Made by a program: the position numbers and the translations under genes
Notes under the pieces: generated by a model
Told to the model about the DNA's origin: nothing
The model's input: the letters and a program-made list of their open reading frames with translations, nothing else
Databases searched by the model: none
Source: Patescibacteria group bacterium
GTDB lineage: Bacteria > Patescibacteriota > Microgenomatia > Woykebacterales > RBG-16-39-9b
NCBI GenBank assembly: GCA_025449635.1
Contig: JANWIZ010000044.1
Span: 1-38,400 of the forward strand
Reading direction: 5' to 3'
Length of the DNA: 38,400 bases
Shown: one piece after another, positions 1,832-9,565 of the stretch
How positions within the stretch are numbered: position 1 is the stretch's first letter
Layout of the letters: each line of letters begins with the position of its first letter

Positions 1832-4800
1832 TTATCTAATTTCAGTTTTATCATGTTGCTGTATTTCACTTGATTGTGGAAAACGAAAAATCTCAACTTC
1901 CCCATTTGGATCTTGTGGTCCAACAGTTGCAGGACCTTGATGAATTGGAGGAGATTGAGTGTTTGGTATAGATGACTCTGGTGTAGCAGAACCTTGTTGA
2001 TTATCCCTCTGTGAGCCGTAGATAGTTTGATTAGGTAAAATATTTGTAGTTGGATCTGGGGATAATACTTGGGCATCATTAGGAGCAGTCATTTCTTCAA
2101 TTGTTTCAAATTTTTCAACCGAACTAACCTTTCTAGTTTCTTCTGCTAGTAAATCAGCCAATGGTGAGTCTGGTTGCGGAATGGTAAATTGCTGCTCTGG
2201 TTCTAATGGAACCACCGAAGCAACTGGAGTTTGGGGTTGTGCTGGTTCTGTAACTATTGGTTGTTGGTAAGTTTGAGATACTTGCCCCCCTTCAATTGGT
2301 TCATTAGAAACTACTGAAGTTGCTTGGGGCTGTTGATTTGGAACTATTGAAGGTTGGTTAACTGTAGTAACAGTTGTTTCCCTTGAAACTGTTGGTTCTG
2401 GTGTTGTCTCTTGCAGTGACCAAGCCGGTGGTTGAGGTGGTAGTCCCGGTCTAAATTTGGTTTCGGTCCATTTCTTAATCAGTCTTTCAACCTTTTCAAC
2501 TTCTCGACCATACTTTGCCCTAGAAGCAGCTATTGCTCTCTGAGCTAAATGAGTTGCGTCTGTTGCTGGTGGTAATGAGAGCGCCGAAAAAGGCTGGGAA
2601 CCCATATCATCAATCTGTAACCGAAGGTACATCTCAAATCGACCTAGATTAACAAAATCATTAGCCAAAAACACCGGGCTAAATTCTTTTTCCAGAAAAG
2701 CAGCATCTTGATTCCCTACTCCAAAACAAATTAATGTACCGACATTTCCAAAAATAGCGTCTCTAACAGTCTGCGGCATTTGTTCGATATATTGATGTGT
2801 GATGGTCAAATCAAGCCGGTATTTTCTGGCTTCGGAAAGAATTACTGCGAAACTATCTGTCGCAAAATTTTGAAATTCATCAGCATAAAGGAAGAAGTCA
2901 GTTCGCTGCTCTTCAGGAATATCAACCCGTCGCATCGCAGCAAATTGAAGTTGCGAAACAATCATTGCTCCAAGAAGGGACGTATTATTTGAACCGATTC
3001 GTCCTGAAGCCAAATTAACAAAGAAAAGTTTACGGTTGTTGATAATATCGTCGATTTTTATAGTTGATTTAGGTTGTCCAACAATGTTTCTGATCAATTC
3101 GCTATTTAGGAATTGACCAACCTTATTTTGAATTGGCGAAATTGCTTCCGTAATAAGACGTTCATTTTGCTCAAGCCGCGCAAACTCGTTGATCCAAAAG
3201 TTCTTCATCTGTGGATCGTTAATTAGATTAACAATGTATTTACGATAATCTTTATCTACCAATAAACGTAAAATTGACAGTAGTGAAGTGTTTGGCACCT
3301 CGAGCAATGTCAAAATACAATTCTTCAAAATATACTCAAGTCTTGGACCCCAGCTATTTTCAAAATACTTCTTGAAGACATCAAGTAGCCCATCAGCAAT
3401 TAAGGTCCTCTGTTTGGTATCAACCATTTCTAACATATTCAATGAAACTGGGTTATCGCTGTCAGCTGGGTTGAAAAGTACAACATCATCAAGTCGATTT
3501 TCAGGTACAAATTCGAGTAACTCATCAATTAACTGTCCGTGTGGGTCTAAAATCGCAACCCCATTACCAGCACGCATATCTTGAATGATCATATTCTTTA
3601 TCATCGTTGATTTACCGACACCGGTTTTACCGATGATATACATGTGTTTTCGTCGATCAGCTTTTTTAATACCAAACTTAGTCTCATGATCACGAAAATA
3701 AGTTTTGCCAATGTAAGTAACATTTTCAGAAGGAAGACTCAGTGGTGGTTCCCCTTTCTTCGATCGAGTCCAATCAATAGTTGGAGTTTCAACCGAAACA
3801 TTTGGTAAATGAAAAATCGAAGCTAGCTCTTCTATCGTTAAAACATAGTCTCCCGCCTCATTCTCAGGAAAATATCTTTCCTGATAATTTTTAAGCAATT
3901 CTGCAGTTTTTGGTCCATCAGGGTCAGATTCAAAACTATTAAGAGAGGCTGTAGAAAACTGCTTAAAAGAAGCAATTGCCGAAGCGAGTCTTTCTTGGGC
4001 AATTCCAGCAGAAGCACCTGCTGCTATCACCCTAATCTTAGTTTCAAAACCAATCTTGGAAAGTTTGTTCTCGATCATTTTTAAATCCAGCTCTTGACCA
4101 GCAGAAAGCCTTGGTGCTGGAGTATGGGCACTCGCTGCTCTTGGGTCAACTTCAGTAGGACCCTTCATCATATAAGGAACGACATTGGTTCCGACAGAAA
4201 GGATATGCTTTCCAACATCAAGCATGATTTCAGAAGCGTTTAAGGCAACTGGCTCTTTGCCCTCGCGAATCATTTTGACATAGTCATGACCTCTGTCTTG
4301 CCAAAAGTCATCTATTGGACGTACAAGAATCTGCACCCAAATTTGCTCTCCATTACGTACGCTACCAAGAGCACTAGTAACTGCAGCTAAAGGATCTACC
4401 TCAAAATCTCGAAAAGTTTTTATGGGGAAAATGAAATCTTTGGCTAAAACAAGTTCCGTACCAATAACTGAGGAGTTATCAGAAATACTCCTGGAATAAT
4501 CAACAGCCTCCCTGATTTCAGCTGTTGGATATTGAGCATAGATTTGACTTTCAACAAAACTTTTGAATTGTCGTGGAGTAAAAGCATAGAAACTAATACC
4601 TTCTGAAGAACTTACAATTTCTAATGAAACATGTTCCTGGGAGGTTGGAGAAAATTTCAACAAACCATGTAAGGAAGCAAACATTTGCTCGGCTGCGATC
4701 GGTAATTTTTCATTTTCTTTGGGTAAACGAATTGAAAGGAGAACTCCCTCAGTAATATCCGACTTCTTGCTTCCTTTAGTTTCTTGCTGTAATGCAGTTC

Positions 4801-4858
4801 TATAGGCAAAGAAGAAGGCTACAATAACAATTATGAAAACAATGATTATTAAGGCCAT
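1832..4858 (-). CDS. Membrane-tethered TraD/VirD4/HerA-like P-loop ATPase
   Basis: 1008 aa. An N-terminal membrane helix (residues ~2-20, LIIIVFIIVIVAFFFAY) is followed by a ~370-residue domain of unknown fold. The motor domain has Walker A GKTGVGKST near residue 410, the AILDPHGQLIDELL segment typical of this superfamily, and Walker B DFFLYADEFQNFA near residue 655, followed by a sensor-like ITHQYIEQMP. The last ~230 residues are P/Q/T/S-rich and probably disordered. Type IV secretion coupling proteins and HerA/FtsK relatives pump DNA or protein through membranes. No relaxase, VirB or pilin genes lie nearby, so conjugation is not supported. A TTGACT-18-TAAGAT promoter precedes the gene. The family call is good; the substrate is unknown. 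Confidence 0.85.
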   Translation of the reverse strand: MALIIIVFIIVIVAFFFAYRTALQQETKGSKKSDITEGVLLSIRLPKENEKLPIAAEQMFASLHGLLKFSPTSQEHVSLEIVSSSEGISFYAFTPRQFKSFVESQIYAQYPTAEIREAVDYSRSISDNSSVIGTELVLAKDFIFPIKTFRDFEVDPLAAVTSALGSVRNGEQIWVQILVRPIDDFWQDRGHDYVKMIREGKEPVALNASEIMLDVGKHILSVGTNVVPYMMKGPTEVDPRAASAHTPAPRLSAGQELDLKMIENKLSKIGFETKIRVIAAGASAGIAQERLASAIASFKQFSTASLNSFESDPDGPKTAELLKNYQERYFPENEAGDYVLTIEELASIFHLPNVSVETPTIDWTRSKKGEPPLSLPSENVTYIGKTYFRDHETKFGIKKADRRKHMYIIGKTGVGKSTMIKNMIIQDMRAGNGVAILDPHGQLIDELLEFVPENRLDDVVLFNPADSDNPVSLNMLEMVDTKQRTLIADGLLDVFKKYFENSWGPRLEYILKNCILTLLEVPNTSLLSILRLLVDKDYRKYIVNLINDPQMKNFWINEFARLEQNERLITEAISPIQNKVGQFLNSELIRNIVGQPKSTIKIDDIINNRKLFFVNLASGRIGSNNTSLLGAMIVSQLQFAAMRRVDIPEEQRTDFFLYADEFQNFATDSFAVILSEARKYRLDLTITHQYIEQMPQTVRDAIFGNVGTLICFGVGNQDAAFLEKEFSPVFLANDFVNLGRFEMYLRLQIDDMGSQPFSALSLPPATDATHLAQRAIAASRAKYGREVEKVERLIKKWTETKFRPGLPPQPPAWSLQETTPEPTVSRETTVTTVNQPSIVPNQQPQATSVVSNEPIEGGQVSQTYQQPIVTEPAQPQTPVASVVPLEPEQQFTIPQPDSPLADLLAEETRKVSSVEKFETIEEMTAPNDAQVLSPDPTTNILPNQTIYGSQRDNQQGSATPESSIPNTQSPPIHQGPATVGPQDPNGEVEIFRFPQSSEIQQHDKTEIR

Positions 4859-4899
4859 TTTTGCTCTCTTTTTCTCATCTCCAATCTAACACAAAGCTA

Positions 4900-4929
4900 A
4901 TCTTACTATTATTTATAGCTAAAAGTCAA
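4900..4929 (-). promoter_or_regulatory. Promoter for the TraD/VirD4-like ATPase operon
   Basis: Read on the minus strand: TTGACT (4929-4924), an 18-nt spacer, TAAGAT (4905-4900). The predicted start is near 4893, giving a leader of about 35 nt before the ATG at 4858, with a purine-rich AAGAGAG as a possible ribosome-binding site. It lies back to back with the plus-strand promoter at 4962-4990. Confidence 0.55.
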
Positions 4930-4961
4930 TTTTAGCTTATTACTTTACCCTTAATCTTAAT

Positions 4962-4990
4962 TTGACTTTTTAAAGAAATCATGCTAATAT
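4962..4990 (+). promoter_or_regulatory. Strong sigma-70 promoter for the candidate small RNA
   Basis: TTGACT (4962-4967), exactly 17 nt, TAATAT (4985-4990), with an extended -10 TG at 4982-4983. One of the best promoter matches in the window, yet no plus-strand gene follows: the next coding region (5091-6155) is on the minus strand. The predicted start is near 4997. Confidence 0.7.
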
Positions 4991-4996
4991 CGCAGT

Positions 4997-5076
4997 GATC
5001 TCTCTCCTTTCTTCCGAGGAAGGGCCAAAATAGTCCTTTCTCGTGACAGAGTCCCCTTCGGGGGGCTTTGTCGTTT
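4997..5076 (+). ncRNA. Candidate small RNA, family not recognised
   Basis: About 80 nt lie between a strong promoter and a 12-bp stem capped by UUCG (5045-5056 / 5061-5072). Upstream of that stem are two mutually exclusive hairpins sharing the GAAGGG segment: TTCTTC/GAAGGG around CGAG (5009-5024), and GAAGGGC/GTCCTTT around CAAAATA (5019-5039). The sequence does not match tRNA, SRP RNA, 6S, tmRNA or a riboswitch I know. The 3' U-run is short (GTTT), so termination may be weak or the RNA may be processed. Existence of the unit is moderately supported; its function is unknown. Confidence 0.45.
5045..5076 (+). terminator. UUCG-capped 12-bp stem, likely 3' end of the small RNA
   Basis: GACAGAGTCCCC pairs along all 12 positions (two G-U) with GGGGGCTTTGTC across a TTCG tetraloop, followed by GTTT. 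On the minus strand no U-tract follows the stem, so it fits plus-strand termination better than the end of the 5091-6155 gene. The short U-run lowers certainty for intrinsic termination. Confidence 0.45.
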
Positions 5077-5090
5077 AAAAGGGTTCTGAA

Positions 5091-6155
5091 TTAAAAATCA
5101 AAATATTTTGCTATGTCATTCCCGATATAAACTTCAGTATCAACATTAATTTTCCTGTCAATTCGATCTTTTATACCGTTTTTGAACATATTAGATAGTC
5201 TTTGATCTAAACTAGTTTTTCTTTTACTGACCAACTCACTTTTTTCAAGCACATTACCAGTCCGTACCTCTACAACACGAAGGCCAATATTGTTAAGCAT
5301 GTTTTTCATAATAGTTCCAGCTCCTTCTACTCTACTGGCGTTAACTACCGTGACTGTTAACTCCTCACTAATAATTCGACTGTCTGTTAAAATTAAGCCA
5401 AAATATTTATTTAAAGAATTGTGTTGTAGATAACCTTGAGTGTCATTACCTCCCCTAAGCTCTAAAATAGTAAACCTCTCTGGACGCAAGCTTTTTACTC
5501 TGGAAATTAACGTATTAAAATCTCCAACCGAGAGATTTGTCCTCAAATTAGAGTCAAGATGAGATTTGATGTTAAAAAAGTTTAAGAAGAAGCCAAAGGA
5601 AAAAACTTCATCTGCTACTCTCTCAAGCTGATCCTTTTTTTGCCATGAGTTTTTTTGGTCAAGCAAAATGTAACCATCGATTGGAAAACCCAAAGTTTCA
5701 ATAAGTTTAGCTGTCAGTTTTTCTAAATAAGTACTGTCATTGACTTTTAATGCGAATAATTCTTTAAGGGTGGTATCCTTTTTCTCTCCATAAATGTTTT
5801 GATTTGGGTCTAGGCTAAGTATGTGAACTTTCTTATCAGTTGGATCAAGGCTTCCTAATGATATTTCCAGTAGTTGATTTGAATAATGAGTTATCAATAA
5901 TATATTTGTTCTAAAGTTAAAATTTATATTGTTTTGGTTTACTAAATTATTCTGTACTTTTGGGAATGGTTTTGCGAAAACATTAATAATCGAAGGTAGT
6001 TTTACCAAAAAAGTAAAAACAAAAAGTCCAGAAATAATTATAAGCAGTAGCTTAAACAACCGTTTTGTCTGTTTGTTACGCTTTTCATTTAACAATGACT
6101 TACTGTTACTAAAACCATGTTGGTCGTAAAGATTAAACTTAATTTTGCTTCCCAT
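5091..6155 (-). CDS. Degenerate LCP-like membrane protein with LytR_C domain
   Basis: 354 aa. A basic N-terminus (NEKRNKQTKRL) precedes one membrane helix at ~35-55. Residues ~78-235 resemble a LytR-CpsA-Psr fold (NILLITHYSN, then VHILSLDPN where active enzymes have an SIPRD-like stretch). Residues ~260-315 match the LytR C-terminal domain (VTVVNASRVEGAGTIMKNM). LCP enzymes attach glycopolymers to the cell wall. Here the Arg and Asp that bind pyrophosphate are not visible, so an enzymatic role is doubtful. The protein is probably anchored with its bulk outside the cell. It is monocistronic, divergent from the 6253 gene. The LytR_C call is fairly secure, the LCP part less so. Confidence 0.6.
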   Translation of the reverse strand: MGSKIKFNLYDQHGFSNSKSLLNEKRNKQTKRLFKLLLIIISGLFVFTFLVKLPSIINVFAKPFPKVQNNLVNQNNINFNFRTNILLITHYSNQLLEISLGSLDPTDKKVHILSLDPNQNIYGEKKDTTLKELFALKVNDSTYLEKLTAKLIETLGFPIDGYILLDQKNSWQKKDQLERVADEVFSFGFFLNFFNIKSHLDSNLRTNLSVGDFNTLISRVKSLRPERFTILELRGGNDTQGYLQHNSLNKYFGLILTDSRIISEELTVTVVNASRVEGAGTIMKNMLNNIGLRVVEVRTGNVLEKSELVSKRKTSLDQRLSNMFKNGIKDRIDRKINVDTEVYIGNDIAKYFDF

Positions 6156-6213
6156 TTAGAGTAAATGTTACCACAGTTATACGCATTTAAGTCGAGGCCC
6201 TTAACTATATTCC

Positions 6214-6243
6214 TTGACAGAGTAAAGTCATTTTCACTACCAT
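6214..6243 (+). promoter_or_regulatory. Promoter of the 232-aa membrane protein gene
   Basis: TTGACA (6214-6219, perfect -35), 18-nt spacer, TACCAT (6238-6243). Only 9 nt separate the -10 box from the ATG at 6253, so the mRNA would have almost no leader. Confidence 0.5.
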
Positions 6244-6252
6244 GAGAGTAGT

Positions 6253-6951
6253 ATGCAACTGCCTAGTCAAATATCAGATTTGATAAAATCAACACCTGAC
6301 CCCAATGTTCCAGCAGAAAAAATAAAGAAGCAAAAGAAGCAACGAATTATTCTTATTACTCTCGCAGCTATAGCTGTACTACTTGTGTTTTTAATCTTGA
6401 TTTTATTCCTCGCTTCGCAAACTTCTAGAAAAACCTCTAAAACTATTCAAGAGTCTGATCCAAAAAAAGCTTTAGAAAAATCCCAGAAAGAAAAAGAGGA
6501 GGCTAGCAGATCAGCTACTGAGGCAGCAAAACCACTAAATCGGCTGCAAAAGGCATTTGATGAGATTATTGGATCCAATAGTCTAAAAAAGAATTTAACT
6601 ATCAATTCTAGCGGTTTAGCCGAAATTGCTTACGTAATCTCATCTACTGATGGCACTTTTATTATTAAGACCTCATACGAAAACTTTGCCGACTTTGCTA
6701 CTAAAGTTTTTAATATTAGCGACGTTCAAAAGTTAAGTATCAGTTCCTACACAACTAAATTTGTCGATCAGTATGGGCAACCAAATCAAGTAGCTTTGAA
6801 ACTAGAAATAACCAGGGAAACTAATGATAAAGTCAACTGGGCAGTAAAAAAATACGCCTACAAAGATTATCCAACTATTCTTACAACCCACCAGATAAAC
6901 TCTAACCTATCAAAAGACTACGAAAACTTACTAAAGTCCTTAAAGAGCTAA
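6253..6951 (+). CDS. Single-pass membrane protein of unknown function
   Basis: 232 aa. A short cytoplasmic segment with a basic patch (KIKKQKKQR) leads into one membrane helix at ~31-53 (IILITLAAIAVLLVFLILILFLA). A charged helical stretch follows at ~60-100 (KALEKSQKEKEEASRSATEAAK, likely coiled coil), then a ~130-residue extracytoplasmic domain of mixed alpha/beta character that I do not recognise. The near-leaderless promoter and lack of Shine-Dalgarno match several other genes here. Its 3' end overlaps the convergent Kef-type antiporter gene by 12 nt. Confidence 0.65.
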   Translation: MQLPSQISDLIKSTPDPNVPAEKIKKQKKQRIILITLAAIAVLLVFLILILFLASQTSRKTSKTIQESDPKKALEKSQKEKEEASRSATEAAKPLNRLQKAFDEIIGSNSLKKNLTINSSGLAEIAYVISSTDGTFIIKTSYENFADFATKVFNISDVQKLSISSYTTKFVDQYGQPNQVALKLEITRETNDKVNWAVKKYAYKDYPTILTTHQINSNLSKDYENLLKSLKS

Positions 6952-8643
6952 TTTCTTCATAGTTTCACGCAATTCATCTAGATGATCTTTTCTGATATGA
7001 CCTTCTCTAATCTCATCCAGTCTTGCAGGGGTTAATAAATGTGCTACTTGATGTCCTGAAAGAATTCTTGGAACAATCACATAATCAGCACCAGCGTTAT
7101 AAAACTTTACTGCCCAATCTCTTTCAGCAGCGGTAACAAAAACTGTTGGTTTTTTTGTAAGCTTAAATATATTTGCAAGAATTTCTTCAGTATCATTAGG
7201 ATCAAAAACAGTAGAAATTACCAAACTGGCTTTCTCTATTCTAGCTTCCTCCCAAATATCTGGATCAGTAATATCACCAAAAAGATAATCTATCTGCATT
7301 TCTTTTAACAACTTAACAATACTTGGATTGAAATCAACAACTAATATGTTCTGGTTTTGTTTCTGCAGTTGTTTTAATATTTCTAACCCTAATCGATCAG
7401 AACCTATAAGGACAATGTGGTCTTCAAGAGTGTTACTGATTTGCTTTTCGATTTTTATATCTCTGATTTCCAAAACTTTAAGATGCTTTTCAATTCTACG
7501 ATAGATTTTGGTCGCAAAGAATAAACCGTAACTTGAAACTGCAATGGTAATCAGAGCAGTTAATGTTACTACGTTGACAACTTCCCTATCGACCTGCCCG
7601 TTTCTAAGAGCGAGAAACAAAACTACCAAAGAAAACTCAGAGACTTGTGCCAATGACAAACCTACCATAAAGGCTGTCCGTCTTCTAAAGCCTAGCCTAC
7701 CAAGAGTAACCATTACTATTAGAGGTTTTACCAAAAGTACAAATAAACTAAACACAAGTGCTTGCCCGAGAATTACAAAATTGAAATCAAGAGCAATTTC
7801 GCTACCGAGAACGATAAAAAACAACACTACGAAAAAATCTCTCAGTGGGTGGATTCTGGCTGCTATCTGATGCTCTTGCTGCAATGCCGCAAGCCCAATA
7901 CCGGCCATAAAAGCACCTATTTCTATTGAAAAATTTACGCTGGCGAAAGCTGCCACAACAAGAAACAACCAGGCTATGCTTGATAAAAATAAGAGCTCTA
8001 AGTTTCGGGCAAGTCTTTCAAAAAGATATGGGAGTAATTTCCGCTGAAGGAAATATATTAAAGCTACTAGTACCGCTCCGACAAAAAGTGTTATCAGTAA
8101 AGAAGCAATATTAAAACCCTTGCCGTCAACGTTTATACCAGAAAGAATTACTAAAAAACCAATTGCTACCAAATCCTGAACCAAAAGTACTGTAATTGAA
8201 ATCTTACCGTGCAATGAGTCAAAATCCCGCTTTTCAGTTAAAAGTTTTACCACGATTACGGTACTAGAGAAAGTCAAACCAACTGCTATATAAAAACTAG
8301 CTACCCAATCCAAACCGACAATATTTGAAAGTAAGAAAGCTAGTCCAAACGTGACTGCAATCTGAATTACTGCAGTTTTAATCGATTCTTTTCCGAATTG
8401 CTTCAAATCATCTATTTTGATCTCAAGTCCAACTAAGAATAGCAAAAAACTTAAACCAAGCTCTTGCATTAGTTTAAAAATCTCCTGATGAGACGGTTCG
8501 TTTATCAGTAGCGGACCGACAAGAATACCTGTGATGATATAAGCCAAAATTAAGGGAAGGCGGAGAAAATTAAACCAAGCACCAAGAAAGGCTGATAAGG
8601 CAATAACGGCACCAATAATTAAAAAAACATTAGCGTCTGGCAT
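6940..8643 (-). CDS. Kef-type (CPA2) cation/proton antiporter with TrkA-N domain
   Basis: 567 aa, normal for KefB/KefC/YbaL-type transporters. Residues ~5-385 hold about 12 membrane helices of the Na+/H+ exchanger fold (LPLILAYIITGILVGPLL at the start; LGLSFLLFLVGLEIKIDDLK is a family hallmark). From ~400 a Rossmann TrkA-N domain begins HIVLIGSDRLGLEILKQL, a variant of the GxGxxG nucleotide loop, continuing with VVDFNPSIVKLL and LFGDITDP. Such proteins exchange K+ or Na+ for H+ at the inner membrane, gated by NAD(H) or another ligand. It is the last gene of the minus-strand run, 25 nt after rluD. Ion specificity cannot be read from sequence. Confidence 0.9.
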   Translation of the reverse strand: MPDANVFLIIGAVIALSAFLGAWFNFLRLPLILAYIITGILVGPLLINEPSHQEIFKLMQELGLSFLLFLVGLEIKIDDLKQFGKESIKTAVIQIAVTFGLAFLLSNIVGLDWVASFYIAVGLTFSSTVIVVKLLTEKRDFDSLHGKISITVLLVQDLVAIGFLVILSGINVDGKGFNIASLLITLFVGAVLVALIYFLQRKLLPYLFERLARNLELLFLSSIAWLFLVVAAFASVNFSIEIGAFMAGIGLAALQQEHQIAARIHPLRDFFVVLFFIVLGSEIALDFNFVILGQALVFSLFVLLVKPLIVMVTLGRLGFRRRTAFMVGLSLAQVSEFSLVVLFLALRNGQVDREVVNVVTLTALITIAVSSYGLFFATKIYRRIEKHLKVLEIRDIKIEKQISNTLEDHIVLIGSDRLGLEILKQLQKQNQNILVVDFNPSIVKLLKEMQIDYLFGDITDPDIWEEARIEKASLVISTVFDPNDTEEILANIFKLTKKPTVFVTAAERDWAVKFYNAGADYVIVPRILSGHQVAHLLTPARLDEIREGHIRKDHLDELRETMKKLAL

Positions 8644-8668
8644 AAACTAAATTATTCTGACTTCAACA

Positions 8669-9565
8669 TTATGAATCTCTAAGCTTTTTTAATAATTTAT
8701 CCAAATCATCTGGTAAACCTGATTTCAAACTAAGCTCTATTTTTGTTGTTGGGTGCTTTAGGTTTAAATTAGATGCGTGTAAAAATTGCCGGTTAAGTAA
8801 CATCCGACCACCATAGAGTTTATCCCCAACAATGGGGTGACCTATATGAGATAGGTGTACCCGGAGTTGATGTGTCCTTCCTGTCAGTGGTTCAAGCTCC
8901 AATAAAGTAAGATTATCACCAAACCGCTCCACTACTCTATACTTTGTAATTGCATCCTTACCTTCCGCAGAAACAATAAATTTAGATTTAAACTTTGGGT
9001 GTCTGATAATACTACCATTTACCTCTCCTGTTTCCTTTTTCACCTTACCTTGAACTAAGGCCAAATATTTTTTATGTACTTCCCTATTTTTAAATTGATT
9101 CTTAAGATTTTCAAGCGAGATTTTGTTTTTTGCAACGACAATTAATCCAGAGGTATCTTTGTCTAATCGATGCACAACTCCAGGCCTTAATCCAACCTCT
9201 TGTGTGACATCACCAAGATGAGATAAAAGTGCGTTTACTAACGTTCCCCTGGGGTGATCAAGGGTAGGGTGAACGATCAAACCTGGTTGTTTATCAACCA
9301 CGATCACATCCATATCTTCAAAAATAATCTTTAATGGAATTTTCTCGGGCAAAAGACTTACTTCTGGATTTACCGGAACCTCAATTTGGACAGAATCCCC
9401 TTTTGATATTTTATATGAAGGCTCTGTTTGGGAGTTATTAACTCTAATAAAACCGTCTTTAATAAGTTTTTTTGCTTTGGAACGAGTAATTTCTTTTACT
9501 TCTGAGGAAACAAATTGATCGAGTCGATCAAGCTTAGGCTTTATCTTTACCTTTAAAACATGCAT
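8669..9565 (-). CDS. rluD: RluA/RluD-family 23S rRNA pseudouridine synthase
   Basis: 298 aa, slightly shorter than E. coli RluD. An N-terminal S4 RNA-binding domain (~residues 13-70, RSKAKKLIKDGFIRVN) is followed by the catalytic domain with the signature RPGVVHRLDKDTSGL, whose first Asp (near 134) is the catalytic residue, and the late motif GRTHQLRVHLSHIGHPIVGD. These enzymes isomerise uridine in rRNA; RluD acts on helix 69 of 23S rRNA. The start codon overlaps the stop of the response-regulator gene (TAATG), implying coupled translation. The family is certain; the exact target site (RluD versus RluC-like) is inferred. Confidence 0.88.
   Translation of the reverse strand: MHVLKVKIKPKLDRLDQFVSSEVKEITRSKAKKLIKDGFIRVNNSQTEPSYKISKGDSVQIEVPVNPEVSLLPEKIPLKIIFEDMDVIVVDKQPGLIVHPTLDHPRGTLVNALLSHLGDVTQEVGLRPGVVHRLDKDTSGLIVVAKNKISLENLKNQFKNREVHKKYLALVQGKVKKETGEVNGSIIRHPKFKSKFIVSAEGKDAITKYRVVERFGDNLTLLELEPLTGRTHQLRVHLSHIGHPIVGDKLYGGRMLLNRQFLHASNLNLKHPTTKIELSLKSGLPDDLDKLLKKLRDS

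Follow-up and report, generated by a model that had tools for sequence, protein, structure and literature searches.

Several CU-rich small RNAs, namely RsaE, LhrC, the csRNAs and rhizobial AbcR, act against the Shine-Dalgarno sequence; each combines a pyrimidine-rich single-stranded seed, complementary to that sequence, with a Rho-independent end. The AbcR1/2 network is the subject of PMC8844928. Yfr1 of cyanobacteria is an RNA of 54-69 nt that is near-universal in its group and has a Rho-independent terminator hairpin (PMC2190773; PMC6778093). It contains an ultraconserved unpaired 11-mer, ACUCCUCACAC, that includes CUCCU (PMC2190773), and it represses translation initiation of a target, as tested in E. 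coli (PMC2190773; PMC6778093). For CPR bacteria, which are ultra-small, have minimal genomes and are mostly uncultured, our literature search gave no conserved regulatory RNA, and the open papers searched held no account of the present RNA or of any conserved sRNA in these bacteria.

Here we describe a small-RNA family that is uncatalogued, being absent from Rfam 15, and that has one member at positions 4962-5076 (+) of the window, the whole stretch of 38,400 nucleotides that was analyzed. Judged from its sequence, this stretch is very probably a genuine conserved RNA gene, and the RNA is probably a genuine regulator in a group of bacteria for which no earlier report was found. The finding is larger than the earlier note on this DNA had seen, as the family extends over multiple CPR lineages.

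The RNA gene and its conserved parts

The window contig is C44 of a 760-kb genome in which the RNA is single-copy. The unit lies between a TraG/HerA-like ATPase with an N-terminal hydrophobic segment (1832-4858, minus strand; Pfam TrwB_AAD_bind/DUF87), which is divergent from the RNA, and an LCP-like protein with a C-terminal LytR_C-like domain (5091-6155, minus strand), which is convergent with it; the LytR_C match of the window's copy is weak (E = 0.008, under the gathering score), and relatives score above the cut-off. These are the neighbors that the earlier note had described as the promoter of a secretion-type ATPase and the 3' end of an LCP-like gene, and no plus-strand gene lies downstream in the window, as it had also said. 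A protein-coding reading was rejected, since no plus-strand ORF of at least 60 aa covers the unit. The earlier note could match no known RNA family, and Rfam 15 likewise gave no match for the window stretch, even at E ≤ 10. None of seven loci (the window stretch and six divergent members) matched an Rfam 15 covariance model, and a known Rfam family was rejected for them.

The promoter (4962-4990, +) was present as previously described and is identified by sequence and by conservation. It consists of TTGACT (4962-4967), a 17-nt spacer and TAATAT (4985-4990), the latter preceded by the TG (4982-4983) of an extended -10, TG-C-TAATAT. Of 31 distinct members scored, 30 have a TTGAC[A/T] -35 and 30 have the 17-nt spacer, by a script that demanded TTGA at the right distance and left uncounted four further members with a TATAAA-type -10. 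The promoter was absent from every search model and pattern, yet it is conserved. The transcript is predicted to begin with the first bases of GAUCUCUC / AGUACUCUC, and from this predicted 5' end on, a conserved segment (GAUCUCUCUCCUUUC, 4997-5011, +) is unpaired in the predicted fold. Within it lies the 12-nt CUCUCUCCUUUC (5000-5011), which is exact in 30 of the 31 distinct members, one member lacking a CU, and invariant in A6; this invariance is partly ascertainment because the models and patterns used that segment. The unpaired segment is complementary to Shine-Dalgarno sequences and is conserved across members, reading GATCTCTCTCCTTTCTTCCG in four order relatives (G002, G004, G006 and G009) with one T fewer in a fifth (G003).

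The RNA at 4997-5076 folds at -38.4 kcal/mol, compared with -23.0 ± 3.2 for dinucleotide shuffles (z = -4.8, 0/200), and the fold of about the same stretch on the minus strand is unremarkable (z = -1.0). In the dominant fold, the unpaired 5' segment is followed by two consecutive hairpins. Hairpin 1 (CGAGGAAGGGC-CAAAAUA-GUCCUUUCUCG, 5015-5043, +) has 11 pairs between 5015-5025 and 5033-5043 around the loop CAAAATA, and model R1 matches 4997-5041 at 67.9 bits. By sequence comparison it is the family's defining hairpin, with a conserved C-CAAA(A)U(U)A-G loop that reads CCAAA(A)U(U)AG across members. Hairpin 2 (5045-5072, +) pairs 5045-5056 with 5061-5072 around a UUCG loop (5057-5060). The earlier note had called it a perfect 12-bp stem; the 12 pairs are there, and they are perfect only if two G-U wobbles count. 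This hairpin is probably the 3' end or terminator of the RNA; its stem is strong but only GTTT follows in the window, so that the T-run after it (GTTTAAAA) is weak. Equivalents of hairpin 2 occur in 8/8 members of the window's order and are absent from the WWE3 and CPR3 members, in which hairpin 1 usually runs directly into a T-rich tail. The predicted RNA is about 75-80 nt in the window genome and about 45-55 nt in WWE3/CPR3 members.

Covariation argues strongly for hairpin 1. In an alignment of 28 members, all 252 of 252 stem cells form standard pairs, and two-sided changes are found in 85 cells versus 26 ± 4 in shuffles. Eight of nine pairs covary and the ninth, the loop-closing C-G, is invariant; the first 13 members gave the same outcome. 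The loop motif served to register the alignments by hand, and missing bases were written as N. Slid controls were 48-65% paired; that contrast is flattered by a register picked for its pairing, which does not account for the two-sided changes. The earlier note had proposed a new small RNA and had staked the proposal on covariation and conservation of the stems in relatives that keep the neighboring genes. Both are seen in such relatives, and the proposal is strongly supported.

Distribution and orientation in CPR genomes

Orthologues of the ATPase and the LCP-like gene led to the same intergenic region in relatives. Beyond the order, further true members in WWE3, CPR3 and other CPR lineages came from scanning about 85,000 genomes with a pattern and from searching phylum by phylum with models. 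The family was traced in about 41 CPR genomes in total; certain handles and named contigs stand for one and the same genome, and the count includes G588 with a divergent loop. In the window's order (Woykebacteria/Woesebacteria), 8 of 10 genomes carry the promoter-RNA unit, 31 of 45 genomes match in the class holding WWE3, and further members come from CPR3 GWF2_35_18 and one other lineage. Five order relatives (G002, G003, G004, G006, G009) have a TTGACT or TTGACA promoter, the 5' segment, a hairpin with a CCAAAAT(T)AG loop and a second GC-rich hairpin; the arms of their hairpin 1 differ in sequence with complementarity kept. Two more, G007 and G008, came from pattern and model searches, and in both the RNA again adjoins the LCP-like gene. 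The two order genomes without the RNA (G001 and G005) gave no LCP-like match either. Presence of the RNA tracks the long ATPase orthologue, in that G446, G680 and five genomes of family f48, all of the WWE3-holding class, have neither. Five genomes of that class that do have this orthologue gave no RNA match (G620, G581, G658, G734, G628), and other families of the window's own class have an ATPase paralogue in another context, without the RNA.

Several candidates were rejected during these searches. Elsewhere in the class, the region upstream of the ATPase paralogue has a different gene context and offered no convincing divergent homologue. Weak class-level matches of model R1 outside the order (≤30.5 bits) are attributed to chance, the top ones being either coding or without promoter and hairpin. 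Exact-pattern matches in Firmicutes, Planctomycetes and other groups and on one viral contig had no hairpin or promoter, and L126 (G524) was excluded with the proper promoter and loop missing. In G588 (L127) the promoter and 5' segment are kept, the loop is a different one (UAAUU) and an apparent tRNA gene lies downstream of the hairpin.

In nearly all members the RNA is found at the 3' end of the LCP-like gene, usually beside the ATPase, in a longer conserved neighborhood whose genes were named from domain matches and from sequence by eye. The order of genes RluA-type pseudouridine synthase / KefB-like exchanger or tgt / LCP-like / RNA / ATPase / small conserved gene recurs in several CPR lineages (window 1832-9565; loci L073, L080, L082, L088, L091, L102, L211).

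The orientation of the unit within this neighborhood varies. It is convergent with the LCP gene in G000, G007, G008, G009, CPR3 and G400 and in tandem with it in G002, G004, G006 and the WWE3 type; relative to the ATPase, it is inverted in G000, G009 and CPR3 and in tandem in others. The RNA's own promoter is kept in relatives and inverts along with the RNA. The finding of both orientations argues for an autonomous unit, and the flips fit a trans-acting one and exclude a leader role in the window. In the WWE3-type tandem genomes the last codons of the LCP gene run into the promoter; coding constraint fails to explain it because in inverted genomes the promoter is intergenic. Synteny, flips and the gene unit are all read from sequence, as are the promoter, the covariation of the hairpin and the invariance of the unpaired segment. 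Comparison of loci L036, L100, L088, L082 and L114 with L034, L073, L104 and L080 indicates that the unit was inverted in place between the same neighbors more than once, even within a family (G000 versus G002/G004/G006). In G007 (L100 1222-2860), two ORFs separate the RNA from the ATPase and the RNA is still beside the LCP gene.

Possible modes of action

We infer the RNA's transcription, pairing mode and targets as follows. The unit would be an autonomous sRNA gene, transcribed from its own sigma-70-type promoter, whose RNA would end in one or two stable hairpins and whose unpaired 5' end carries the almost invariant CUCUCUCCUUUC, which resembles the anti-Shine-Dalgarno tail of 16S rRNA. The 5' segment, with CUCUCUCC included in the pairing part, would pair in trans with GA-rich ribosome-binding sites (RBSs; core GAAAGGAGAG), and this pairing would block or tune translation initiation of a set of mRNAs, the adjacent ATPase mRNA plausibly among them. 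The role of the hairpin with the CCAAAUUAG loop would be to stabilise the RNA or to terminate it, and this hairpin may also have a binding partner. Likeness to the 16S tail and complementarity to RBSs together make blocking of the Shine-Dalgarno sequence the most economical mechanism, and anti-Shine-Dalgarno regulation in trans has, in our judgment, an even chance of being the mode of action. A broader proposal, that an ancient sRNA of WWE3, CPR3 and Woykebacteria/Woesebacteria imitates the 16S 3' tail and controls the initiation of translation, the neighboring DNA-translocase-like ATPase being one of its targets, is put forward tentatively; if true, the radiation, for which no sRNA regulator was found described, would have a conserved one.

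The most suggestive target lead is the predicted pairing with the RBS of the ATPase. This RBS ranks higher for the RNA than for the 16S tail in all seven order genomes examined, at percentiles (of G004 genes) of 0.7-29 with the RNA versus 11-61 with the 16S tail, in a post hoc ranking that takes one genome's genes as background and whose rows are related. The pairing reaches -22 kcal/mol in G003 and G006. A conserved-target scan of 162 ortholog triples from three genomes (one main contig of 938 kb, one complete genome of 878 kb and 580 kb from a third genome) gave no target that stood clearly above shuffles, with a top-5 mean of -12.9 versus -12.3 ± 0.6. Its top row, the ATPase itself, was discarded, as internal starts had been mis-called for this gene in two of the three genomes. 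In the window's genome, complement sites resembling GAAAGGAGAGAG are not enriched (five beyond the RNA gene at ≤2 mismatches versus three for the reversed control), and AAAGGAGAG is over-represented in the RBSs of only one WWE3-class genome, where 14 of 30 genomic sites are in RBS position. A CU-rich RNA generically complements GA-rich RBSs, which counts against the anti-Shine-Dalgarno reading.

The excess of AAAGGAGAG lies mainly before small lineage-specific genes and is clustered in G510:C1 (L188-L231), with starts, for example, near 131780, 132687, 135416, 138589, 501317, 504037 and 507521 (strand-wise script coordinates). Very short leaders are suggested by the TATA-like box that closely precedes several of these genes.

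An alternative hypothesis is that the RNA is a decoy, its CU-rich 5' segment and CCAAAUUAG loop titrating a protein with no pairing to mRNA. Both the single-stranded pyrimidine segment and the loop sequence are conserved, 12 nt that hardly vary between lineages are easier to square with one constant partner than with mRNA targets that drift, the three-genome scan gave no conserved targets, and the 5' segment resembles the 16S tail. However, the protein partner is only putative and complementarity to the Shine-Dalgarno sequence would be left as a coincidence, and we consider this rather unlikely; S1-, KH- or cold-shock-type proteins or a factor that recognizes the 16S 3' end would be candidate partners.

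Less probable still is a cis-acting leader or attenuator of a downstream ATPase gene, in which the hairpin would limit read-through or cover the start codon. The ATPase start codon of many genomes in the WWE3-holding class comes about 10-30 nt after the hairpin, often with no separate Shine-Dalgarno sequence, and the T-tract is weak in several members. However, the unit faces away from the adjacent ATPase in the window, in G009 and in CPR3, and in G007, G008 and G400, where no ATPase was seen next to it, it faces the LCP gene; all six retain the promoter, the 5' segment and the hairpin, and in the window no plus-strand gene is available downstream to be led. A leader role could hold in tandem genomes only. 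At L118, L121, L122, L125 and L128, all loci of the WWE3-holding class, the ATPase start lies about 0-25 nt past the hairpin with no clear Shine-Dalgarno sequence.

The earlier note had pointed to two hairpins that share a GAAGGG segment and exclude each other, and had read them as a regulatory feature. The mutual exclusion stands, but the regulatory reading is not supported. In favor of a metastable switch, pairing between the 5' segment and the G-rich 5' arm of hairpin 1 is feasible in the window's order (-6 to -11 kcal/mol), but the alternative at 5009-5024 is weaker (-7.5 versus -10.1 kcal/mol for the 9-bp core of hairpin 1), as it is in all members, and it depends on the G-rich arm, which no member outside this order has. 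Members from WWE3 and its relatives mostly have a C-rich arm instead, and their alternative reaches about 0 to -3 kcal/mol versus -15 to -21 for the main hairpin; absent or negligible there, it is no family feature. The competing hairpins are limited to the window's order and probably incidental. They are most simply taken as a side effect of a 5' end rich in pyrimidines lying opposite an arm rich in purines, and a switch is very improbable.

We also find it hard to believe that the element is a mere transcription terminator of the LCP gene with incidental promoter-like boxes and no regulatory RNA: tandem genomes do have a GC-rich hairpin and T-rich tail within tens of bases of the LCP stop, and the WWE3 type has TTGACA in LCP 3'-end codons, but the conserved TTGACA-17-TANNNT and CUCUCUCCUUUC are foreign to a terminator, invert with the hairpin and are non-coding in inverted genomes.

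With its fixed promoter, its 12-nt segment that scarcely varies and its strong covariation, all at a single syntenic locus, the family provides a searchable model and a predicted transcript start, and it allows a direct test of whether riboregulation is an old trait of the CPR radiation. Likeness to the 16S tail poses a specific question of translation control for organisms with few known regulators.

Comparison with known systems

How does the CPR RNA compare with described regulators? A cis-acting leader or riboswitch lies upstream of a gene and on its strand, an arrangement found in the tandem relatives only and not in the window. The 3' tail of 16S rRNA in relatives, GGAUCACCUCCUUUCU, shares CUCCUUUCU with the 5' segment of the RNA, and in the window's order the preceding GAUC is shared as well (GAUCUCUCUCCUUUCU versus GAUCACCUCCUUUCU); however, the 16S tail has a CCUCC core, whereas the RNA has CUCUCC and is encoded as a separate small gene. 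With RsaE, LhrC, the csRNAs and AbcR the RNA has in common a pyrimidine-rich unpaired seed complementary to the Shine-Dalgarno sequence, but its synteny, loop and lineage are unlike theirs and the seven loci have no Rfam match.

By analogy, the closest relative in kind is Yfr1. Membership in the Yfr1 family was rejected, as the undecanucleotide ACUCCUCACAC is absent (the segment being CUCUCUCCUUUC) and so is the 5' stem-loop: Yfr1 has a hairpin before its unpaired segment, whereas the CPR RNA has a free 5' end. Unlike Yfr1, the CPR RNA has the longer CUCUCUCCUUUC and a conserved loop in its 3' hairpin, occurs in other phyla and has putative targets only. What the two have in common is a similar size, near-universal presence in a radiation, an ultraconserved unpaired motif containing CUCCU and a terminator hairpin, which in the CPR RNA is a probable one.
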